From: Virgibacillus sp. AGTR
GTDB taxonomy: Bacteria; Bacillota; Bacilli; Bacillales; Amphibacillaceae
Assembly (NCBI RefSeq): GCF_016919725.2
Contig: NZ_JAJERH010000005.1
Location: 62,001 to 126,000 of the forward strand
Length of the DNA stretch: 64,000 nucleotides
Reading direction: 5' to 3'
The notes under the pieces are model-generated. The model had not been told where the DNA came from. It worked only from the letters and a program-made list of their open reading frames with translations, and did no database searches. Every line of letters starts with the position of its first letter. Positions within the stretch are counted from its first letter, which is position 1. A program made the translations under genes and the position numbers. Positions 3,503 to 7,350 of the stretch are shown piece after piece.

Positions 3503-4105
3503 TCACCTACTTGCATCAAAATTTATAAAAAGAGAACCTAATTCTTGCGTATCAAAAAAACTAATTTCATAATCATTATCTTGATAGGTTAACTCACTAT
3601 CACCTGAATCTAAAAACTCATTAAATTTATTGTTGTACTTTTCGCCTTCCAATTGAAGAGTGTTGATAATAATAACTGCCGAGGCAATTCCTCTACTTAA
3701 ATATTGATCATTTTCTTTAGTTCCTGTAATTGCTAATTGATAACCATTCAAAGTTTTGTTTTCATTATATTTTGCTAATATAGAATAAGATGAACCATCT
3801 TCATCATAAAAATCTGACTCATACAGTTTTTTAGAATACCAGTTCTTTTCTTTTATTAATTTACCAAAATCATGCGGATTCAACATTTCCAATTCATAGT
3901 CTTCATCACTGAGGTTTATTGTTTCGATTCCTTCATTGTATTTTTTAACAAAGTCATTTAATTGGTCATCGGAAGCCTTGTTATCTAATCCATTCTCACT
4001 ATCTACTATCTTTGAATTATCATTTTCTTTTGCATTATTTTGTGAACAACCAATCATCAAAAATATCAATGAACATAAAAACAAAACAGCTAATACCTTC
4101 TTCAT
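3503..4105 (-). CDS. Prophage-encoded lipoprotein (cargo gene)
   Basis: A 200-aa predicted lipoprotein. It has an MKK start, a hydrophobic stretch and a lipobox LMIGC with Cys20, followed by an Asn/Asp/Lys/Ser-rich linker. The remaining ~150 residues form a mixed alpha/beta extracellular domain with no recognised fold. A GGGGGAGATTG ribosome binding site precedes the ATG. A terminator at 4179-4217 separates it from the regulator upstream, and a TATAAT-like hexamer lies between, so it may have its own promoter. This layout is typical of a lysogenic-conversion or superinfection-exclusion gene; the function is inference. Confidence 0.75.
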   Translation of the reverse strand: MKKVLAVLFLCSLIFLMIGCSQNNAKENDNSKIVDSENGLDNKASDDQLNDFVKKYNEGIETINLSDEDYELEMLNPHDFGKLIKEKNWYSKKLYESDFYDEDGSSYSILAKYNENKTLNGYQLAITGTKENDQYLSRGIASAVIIINTLQLEGEKYNNKFNEFLDSGDSELTYQDNDYEISFFDTQELGSLFINFDASR

Positions 4106-5442: not shown

Positions 5443-6809
5443 CTACCCCTCCTTTACTTTCTCAATTCGTGCTTTTACAGCTTCCAGTAGGGCGTCTTGT
5501 CCTGCTGTTTTATCAGCCAGTCTCGATGCAACAGTCTCGTCTAATGTATTTTCAGCTACTAAATGGTGAATGATAACTCGTTCTTTTTGTCCTTGTCGAT
5601 CTAGCCTAGCATTTGCCTGTTGATATAATTCTAAAGACCAAGTTAATCCAAACCAAACAATGTTATGTCCGCCATCCTGTAAGTTTAATCCGTGACCAGC
5701 TGAAGCTGGATGTGTTAAAAGTAAAGGTATTTCTCCTTTATTCCACGCTTCGATATCCTCCGGACCTTCTAACTTTTTTGCTTCCGGGAATCTTTTCATG
5801 ATTCTAGACAGATCGTGCTTATACGTATAAAAGCAAAGGATTGTTTTCCCGTTTGCGGCTTCGATAAGATCTTCTAAAGCATCAAGTTTTGCATGGTGGA
5901 CTTCCTGCACATCTTTATTTTCGTCATACACAGCCCCATTGGCTATCTGTAGTAACTTATTAGACAAAACTGCTGCTGTATCAGCTGTTACGTCACTGTC
6001 GTCAAATGGCAATAGGAGATCTTTCTCTAGCTTCTCGTATTTTTTCCTAGTATTAGCTGTTAAAGTGACTGGCACCATCCGTTCTATTCTCTCCGGTAAG
6101 TCTAGCCAGTCTTTGGCACTCATACTGACACAAATATCTGATATCTTCTCATACACTCGATTCTCAGCTTCATCTTTTTGTTTCCATTCGTAGACAATAT
6201 GACCGTCACGTCTTCCTGGCGTGAAGTATCGATCTCGGTATCCGGTTATCGTTCTTCCTAAACGCTCTCCTTGGTCTAATAAATACAATTGTGCCCATAA
6301 ATCATGAAGACCGTTTGGTGTTGGTGTACCAGTTAAACCGATGATACGCTGCATTAGAGGCCTGACTCGACGCAAAGCACGGAAACGTTTGGATTTACTG
6401 GATTTAAAACTAGATAACTCGTCAATCACTACCGTATCAAATGGCCATTTACTACCTGTCATACTCACCAGCCAAGGTACATTTTCTCGATTGATTACAT
6501 ACACATCAGCTTCTGCCTTTAGTGCTTTTTCTCGTTGGGTTCTGGATCCAAGAATTTTAGATATCGTAATATGCTGCAGATGATCCCATTTAGCTGTTTC
6601 CCTACTCCACGTATCCTGCGCCACTCGTAAAGGAGCTATGACTAAAATTTTCCCTGCGTCAAAATACGTATTTTTCAACTCTTCTAGGGCAGTTAAGGTG
6701 ATAACGGTTTTTCCTAACCCAAGCCCATATCCAAAAATAGACCAGCTGCTGGCGTGTCAATAATCTTCTGTATAGCAAATTCTTGATATTGATGGGGTAT
6801 GAACTTCAT
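5443..6809 (-). pseudogene. SNF2-type phage DNA helicase, frameshifted at Walker A
   Basis: A superfamily 2 helicase of phage replication modules. Translation from the ATG at 6809 (coupled TGATG with the VRR-NUC gene) gives MKFIPHQYQEFAIQK...LFLDMGLG and then meets TAG at 6714-6716. Immediately after, another frame reads LGKTVITLTAL and continues for over 400 residues with IAPLRVA, a Walker B-like DTVVIDELSSF, GLTGTPTPNG, and the C-terminal helicase motifs ending DRQGQKERVIIHHLVA. Against the family pattern DMGLGKT the DNA holds about 5 extra bases (GGGCTTGGGTTAGG) inside the nucleotide-binding loop. An internal TTG at 6678 could start a 411-aa product, but without motif I. The cause may be mutation or an assembly error. 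Confidence 0.85.
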
Positions 6810-7093
6810 CAGGCACCACCTCCAATCTCTTTTATAAAATTGTCCACTTGCTGCTTAGATTCTAGTACATAGACCTCATGTTTACGTTTCTCAAGCTCCT
6901 GAATCCGTTTCTCCTGTAGCGGACTTAGCTTTCCATCAGGCGCCTTCATTTCTACAAAAAGGGTACGTCCTCGAGGTAAAATGCAAATGCGATCTGGCAC
7001 ACCTCTTCTACCAGGAGACACCCATTTGAAGCACAGACCTCCAAGCTGTTCAATTTTATCTTTTAGTCTTTTTTCTAATTGACTTTCTTTCAC
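6809..7093 (-). CDS. VRR-NUC domain nuclease
   Basis: A small stand-alone VRR-NUC protein of the PD-(D/E)XK superfamily. Visible motifs are the N-terminal helix with a conserved Glu (ESQLEKRLKD), KWVSPGRRGVPDRI containing the catalytic Asp, and FVEMKAPDGKLSPLQ containing the E-x-K pair. These nucleases are regular partners of SNF2 helicases in phage replication modules and probably act on branched DNA. The GTG at 7093 is chosen because it overlaps the upstream stop as GTGA with an AAAAGGTGGG site; a GTG at 7102 is also in frame. Its stop overlaps the helicase start as TGATG. Confidence 0.88.
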   Translation of the reverse strand: MKESQLEKRLKDKIEQLGGLCFKWVSPGRRGVPDRICILPRGRTLFVEMKAPDGKLSPLQEKRIQELEKRKHEVYVLESKQQVDNFIKEIGGGA

Positions 7094-7350
7094 GGGGCCC
7101 ACCTTTTCACATTTGACTTAGTACAGAAATCCCATCGGGTCAAAAGCTCCTTAATGAAAACTTCTGTACTCTGACTCTTTTTGGGATCCATTGAATCATC
7201 ATAAAACCAAACTTCATAAAACTGGACTTCTTCTCTTACTTTTAAGAAAGGGTTTGATACTCTGATAACCTCGTACTTACGGTTAAATAGTTCCAAGCGC
7301 CCGTTCTCAAACACTCTCATTCCATAAGGTAAATCCAAACTAAAATTCAC
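7090..7350 (-). CDS. Phage hypothetical protein (86 aa)
   Basis: Not recognised. The protein is rich in aromatic and charged residues with an apparent beta-strand character (RLELFNRKYEVIRVSNPFLK, QFYEVWFYDD). No membrane segment or cysteine motif. It is the first gene after the iteron-like noncoding region and overlaps the VRR-NUC start, so it belongs to the same replication operon. Confidence 0.65.
   Translation of the reverse strand: MNFSLDLPYGMRVFENGRLELFNRKYEVIRVSNPFLKVREEVQFYEVWFYDDSMDPKKSQSTEVFIKELLTRWDFCTKSNVKRWAP

Follow-up and report, generated by a model that had tools for sequence, protein, structure and literature searches.

To our knowledge, the evidence for translational bypassing in bacteria and their phages comes essentially from gene 60 of phage T4 alone. 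In that gene, bypassing of 50 nt has been proven, and the site combines a Gly take-off codon, an adjacent stop codon, a 5' stem-loop and a Gly landing codon (PMC11194080, PMC5009743). Counterparts of bypassing over shorter distances have long been presumed (PMC5009743). In stop-hops, a stop codon is flanked by two matched codons, and no natural in-frame occurrence is known (PMC5009743). In the mitochondria of Magnusiomyces, byps are many short non-coding blocks, for which imperfect landing codons are tolerated through two-out-of-three pairing (PMC5009743). In the terminase gene of Streptomyces phage Hau3, bypassing is considered likely without having been shown, and an upstream Shine-Dalgarno-like sequence was proposed to help (PMC5009743).

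We analyzed a stretch of 64,000 nucleotides from Virgibacillus sp. AGTR, here called the window, in which a prophage helicase gene lies on the minus strand. The ATG start codon of the helicase (6807..6809) overlaps the TGA stop codon of an upstream, translationally coupled gene (6809..7102, minus strand) with a VRR-NUC domain (Pfam PF08774, VRR_NUC, E 1.8e-9). From the ATG (6809-6807), the frame opens with the N-terminal start MKFxPHxYQ common to the helicase and its relatives, and runs for 31 codons (MKFIPHQYQEFAIQKIIDTPAAGLFLDMGLG) to ...GLFLDMGLG, where it ends at TAG (6716-6714), as a sequence-only reading of this DNA had described. The helicase frame resumes with KTVITLTA... (KTVITLTALEELK...; 5443..6711, minus strand) and continues for 422 amino acids to a stop codon at 5443. 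The same reading had counted about five extra bases against DMGLGKT, and the count was correct: the five bases TAGGA (6712..6716, minus strand) are in excess of DMGLGKT coding, and KT resumes in another frame. The two frames are split by a non-coding gap, and joining them restores the Walker A motif of the family. The downstream part matched the Pfam domain SNF2-rel_dom (PF00176, E 7.8e-20), and a Helicase_C match (E 8.4e-5) fell just under its own cut-off; with SNF2-related and C-terminal helicase domains both present, the gene is a phage SNF2-related helicase. A second phage-type SNF2 helicase in the same genome of 215 contigs (L002, G000:C150:61194-62417), 48% identical, has an uninterrupted frame.

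The insert is probably a programmed translational bypass (stop-hop) site that restores DMGLGKT. The proposed take-off codon is GGT (6717..6719, minus strand), which is codon 31 and the second Gly of DMGLG, and the TAG overlaps the proposed landing triplet GGA (6714-6712). Like T4 gene 60, the site would combine a Gly take-off codon with an immediate stop codon, a Gly landing and a structure upstream of take-off in a phage gene, and the first open reading frame is short in both (46 codons in T4 gene 60 and 31 codons in the helicase). Unlike T4 gene 60, with its gap of 50 nt, the helicase has a gap of 4 to 12 nt in many phages of many hosts, and the gene itself differs, the site lying inside Walker A of an SNF2 helicase. 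The geometry of the synthetic stop-hops is shared by CTT-TAG-CTG in L064 and GGT-TGA-GGT in L037; while the prior stop-hops were synthetic constructs, the helicase sites are natural. Short non-coding blocks and imperfect landing triplets are shared with the Magnusiomyces byps, but the byps are mitochondrial, occur in many genes and are apparently independent of mRNA context, whereas the helicase has one site in one gene with a conserved RNA helix. The Hau3 terminase is likewise a phage gene with a short gap, but it is a different gene and is tied to UUA codon usage.

Relatives of the helicase were gathered with only the downstream part as the query, so that the choice did not depend on whether they carried an insert. 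Within the same short run of Walker A codons, a small insertion was present in 13 of the 78 IMG/VR relatives having the region and in 10 of the 80 best genome relatives, the latter including Desulfosporosinus hippei, Paenibacillus paeoniae, Paenibacillus koleovorans and Clostridium guangxiense. Combined, the two unbiased sets had the insert in 23 of 158 relatives (a baseline of about 15%), far more than expected by chance at these codons. Among these 158 relatives, there was no longer insert such as an intron or intein, and the maximum was 12 nt. A search of IMG/VR with a pattern of Walker A codons, a stop codon and AARAC, all within 20 nt, gave at least 120 matches; among the matches listed (80 loci), most were helicases with an intact N-terminal part, a stop codon directly after GLG, an insert of 4 to 12 nt and an intact KTVIT.... 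When 399 genomes of the phylum were scanned with a tighter pattern, 4 genomes matched, including that of the window, while the reversed control pattern had no matches in the same genomes.

Overall, the collection reached at least 147 distinct Gly-type cases and also included a smaller Leu-type group; the counts are drawn from public contigs with related sequences, in which redundancy was lowered and some remains. In about 150 distinct copies, from phages or prophages, an insert of 4 to 12 bases that almost always opens with a stop codon lies at one codon junction, and all three frame phases are represented. Erysipelothrix phage phi1605 and three Ca. Heliusvirales phages are among the sequenced phages with this layout, and the insert-bearing gene is usually annotated as a truncated helicase preceded by a short hypothetical ORF. 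In L424 (PV036457.1 34855-36225), L425, L423 and L422, the site is masked by the annotation, including a CDS that begins in another frame. One metagenome contig (L012) has as its position 1 the Lys codon right after the insert site, and this end is perhaps an assembly break where populations bearing and lacking the insert were mixed. Two-piece tblastn matches on plasmids of Pyramidobacter, S. aureus and P. amylolyticus were set aside, as their indels lie away from this site. In the open-access papers searched, we found no description of the insert site.

A second element, GGAGGTGATGCC-NN-ATG-AAG-TTC, was found at the start codon of the Gly-type insert-bearing copies and not of the intact ones. 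It emerged unexpectedly when the codons of insert-bearing and intact copies were compared, which showed codon 2 fixed as AAG and codon 3 as TTC in the insert-bearing ones. The Shine-Dalgarno sequence of the window, GGAGGTG (6817..6823, minus strand), is extended to GGAGGTGAT in most insert-bearing relatives, and the mean match to the 16S tail was 8.7 nt in insert-bearing copies and 6.1 nt in intact copies. A GCC triplet ahead of the start codon (6812..6814, minus strand) can pair with the GGY take-off codon, and GGTG[AG]TGCC was present in 105 of 143 insert-bearing copies and in 0 of 101 intact copies. When the start element (GGTGATGCCNNATGAAGTTC) alone was used for a scan blind to the insert, 80 loci were found, 79 of which were this helicase; 74 of the 79 had the insert, compared with about 15% in the unbiased sets.

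The start region can also pair with the Walker A codons. In the window, the strand AAGUUCAU of codons 2 to 4 (6799..6806, minus strand) forms 8 of 8 pairs with AUGGGCUU of codons 28 to 30 (6721..6728, minus strand), which encode Met-Gly-Leu of Walker A just upstream of the stop codon. In this link between start region and take-off codons, the helicase differs from T4 gene 60. Paired cells made up 94% in 97 non-redundant insert-bearing copies and 64.5% in 57 intact copies, while slid controls reached at most 46%, and the observed counts of paired cells and double changes were matched by 0 of 500 shuffles. In partition functions, the mean helix probability was 0.51; it fell to 0.00-0.02 after synonymous codon resampling and was 0.00 in intact copies. 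Arg (AGG) at codon 2 occurred only alongside CTC, so that the pair was kept. Copies with GMG in place of GLG have the helix shifted by a few bases with 7 to 11 pairs, and in L059, in which the stop codon comes a few codons earlier, the helix lies directly ahead of that stop codon (p 0.005). The helix is not universal, since RNAalifold without constraint gave no consensus structure, unlike the constrained counts and the partition functions, and since the helix is absent from the Leu-type copies and from the L152/L202/L218 group. Of 138 insert-bearing copies, the helix was significant at 0.05 in only 65 when each copy was taken by itself. In a divergent family of phage SNF2 proteins (L124, L158, L213, L222 and L226; KTFIGSEKM...CQKSK), GLG is likewise followed by a stop-containing insert; the family also has a GGTGATG-like leader and its own long duplex between start and Walker A, which is individually weaker (p 0.00-0.13). 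Two other pairings were considered. Pairing between the take-off region and 16S rRNA, in the manner of a Shine-Dalgarno sequence, was unconvincing, as the CTC-GGC variants do not fit. A nested second helix between the long Shine-Dalgarno sequence and downstream ATCACC codons appeared in some individual folds, yet the ATCACC codons did not differ significantly between insert-bearing and intact copies.

The collection pattern made no demand for the synonymous codon choices ahead of the stop codon, where GGC-(TTR or CTC)-GGY is fixed in insert-bearing copies. The first Gly codon was GGC in 131 of 147 insert-bearing copies and in 25 of 129 intact copies, and the Leu codon of the insert-bearing copies was TTG, TTA or CTC. 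While the second Gly, the proposed take-off codon, was any GGN in intact copies, it was GGT or GGC in 145 of 146 insert-bearing copies. The stop codon directly followed the take-off codon in 146 of the 147 Gly-type cases, a set gathered largely by a stop-like-codon pattern and therefore biased in its stop frequencies, and in 68 of 74 copies chosen by the start element, which provided an unbiased check. The stop codons were mainly TAG and TGA. In inserts of at least 6 nt, in which the stop codon is free of the landing-triplet constraint, TGA was preferred (40 of 49) and TAA was depleted. Over all inserts, T followed the stop codon in 2 of 146 cases against a background of 25%, a deficit for which the landing triplet accounts in part.

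The landing triplet, which is the three bases before the Lys codon, was GGC, GGA or GGT in 83 of 147 insert-bearing copies. The remaining 64 triplets were imperfect, differing from GG[ACT] by one mismatch (AGC, AGT, AGA, GAC, GAT or CGC), with C or T as the third base in 62, making landing looser than in T4 gene 60. GGG was found in 0 of 147 insert-bearing copies, compared with 27% of intact copies at that codon (p 4e-9). These rules fit the prediction that tRNA-Gly (anticodon GCC) would re-pair through at least two good pairs. Six of the 74 copies chosen by the start element (L434, L442, L451, L438, L440 and L444), some of them near-identical to one another, have an insert that opens with the sense codon TCG, CCA or CTG; their landing triplets follow the same rule, and they are possible hops over a sense codon. 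In the Leu-type copies (L050, L064, L065, L066 and L285), the site is one codon earlier in Walker A and the start-site helix is absent; their sequences are CTT-TAG-CTG, CTT-TAA-CTG, CTT-TGA-CTA, CTA-TGAA-CTA and CTC-TAG with CTA one frame on. We saw no distinctive nascent peptide in the helicase, unlike in T4 gene 60; the N-terminal peptide is alike in intact copies and has no distinct motif.

In a tree built from the downstream protein, in which Leu-type copies were unlabelled, the insert state changed at least 15 times among 16 carriers. The helix changed together with the insert in independent pairs (mean 7.0 with and 0.5 against; median sign-test p 0.04). The nearest relatives of the window (L008 and L237) are without the insert, and their start regions are without the full start element. 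Horizontal transfer of the whole N-terminal block was also considered. At equal downstream divergence, the N-terminal middle of carriers was little or no more alike than that of non-carriers, and wholesale block transfer thus fails to explain the shared ends.

The sequence-only reading had offered a crippling mutation, an assembly error or a slippage site, and had favored a broken gene and a recent event. An inactivating mutation would leave a dead helicase, and a mutational hot spot at short repeats such as GGGCTTGGG would give recurrent small insertions; the insert does resemble an imperfect repeat, and the many changes on the tree and the intact close relatives of the prophage agree with such an origin. 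However, the dN/dS of insert-bearing copies was 0.117 in the N-terminal part and 0.079 in the downstream part (first 30 codons), while that of intact copies was 0.099 and 0.076 and that of a frame-shifted control was about 1. The insert-bearing gene is under strong purifying selection on both flanks, equal to that of intact copies, and with dN/dS at about 0.1 on both sides it is not a pseudogene. GLG and KT are conserved on either side of the insert, and a hot spot would not predict a stop at the first codon, the fixed codons, the landing rules or a second element 90 nt upstream. We therefore consider mutation very unlikely. Homologs sharing the layout and a conserved site, named beforehand as evidence against a broken gene, were found, and the recurrence in about 150 distinct copies does not support a recent event. 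An error of assembly or sequencing might be suspected in a draft of 215 contigs, but the layout recurs in about 150 independent records, drawn from both isolates and metagenomes, and the window also has the matching start element and helix, which leaves error with a negligible probability.

The slippage proposal was right in pointing to recoding but not in its single frame, since inserts of 4 to 12 bases in every phase indicate a hop rather than slippage into one fixed frame. A -1 shift does restore the frame in the window, yet in relatives with inserts of 4, 5, 6 and 7 nt the shifts needed at this position are +1, -1 and 0. The site thus lacks the single frame change of a conserved slippery sequence, and classical -1 slippage at GGGTTAG fails because other copies need other phases. 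Shifting or stop readthrough would also put extra residues into the Walker A loop; a hop would not alter DMGLGKT, and the landing rules fit re-pairing ahead of AAR; ordinary frameshifting or readthrough is accordingly improbable. About equally improbable is excision of the insert from the mRNA, as a tiny intron or by helix-guided RNA processing. This would be compatible with all frame phases and with a helix adjoining the site, but the stop type, the depletion of TAA and the tRNA re-pairing rules are signatures of translation, and we know of no enzyme that removes 4 to 12 nt from bacterial mRNA. A self-splicing intron or intein does not fit inserts of at most 12 nt without a large conserved intervening sequence. 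Alternatively, the helix could be a mere translational operator for autoregulation at the helicase start, with re-initiation giving a split or Walker-A-less protein. The start codon sits between two helix parts, the Shine-Dalgarno sequence is unusually long and an internal start is annotated in some records. Against this, GLG and KT are conserved though useless unless joined, no start codon is conserved at KT, and helix and insert occur together; we regard such an operator as quite unlikely.

In the bypass that we favor, the ribosome would read codons 1 to 31 until GGU is in the P site and the stop codon in the A site. The peptidyl-tRNA-Gly would then detach from GGU, move forward by 5 bases here (4 to 12 in relatives) and re-pair on the landing triplet right before AAA-ACC, and continued translation would yield the full helicase with an unchanged DMGLGKT. 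The helix between codons 2 to 4 and Met-Gly-Leu, lengthened by pairing of GCC with GGY, probably favors the forward movement. Because the take-off-side strand sits inside the ribosome when GGY is in the P site, the helix would close only after forward movement; closing behind the ribosome, it would capture the vacated take-off codon and make the move hard to reverse. We infer the hop itself, this direction of the helix effect and the efficiency of the hop.

We consider it rather likely that these sites form a widespread natural class of short helix-directed stop hops in the ATP-binding loop of phage helicases, which possibly act as a switch on helicase synthesis. If so, these would be the first bypass sites of bacterial viruses to form a large family, and the approximately 150 natural variants in gap length, stop codon, landing codon and helix register would provide a comparative data set on the requirements for hopping. 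In many phages, current annotation splits or truncates the helicase, and some genes called "pseudogenes" for a stop codon in the P-loop may be functional. Why a hop would lie inside the ATPase loop of a helicase is a testable question. Possible answers are control of helicase dose, neutral fixation, or the shielding of a conserved DNA target against a nuclease, as a review suggested for gene 60 (PMC5009743).

The window also contains an ORF of 200 amino acids (3503-4105, minus strand) with a lipoprotein-like signal (MKKVLAVLFLCSLIFLMIGCS). It sits in the prophage with the helicase module on one side and the HNH/terminase genes on the other, and is possibly a lysogenic conversion gene.
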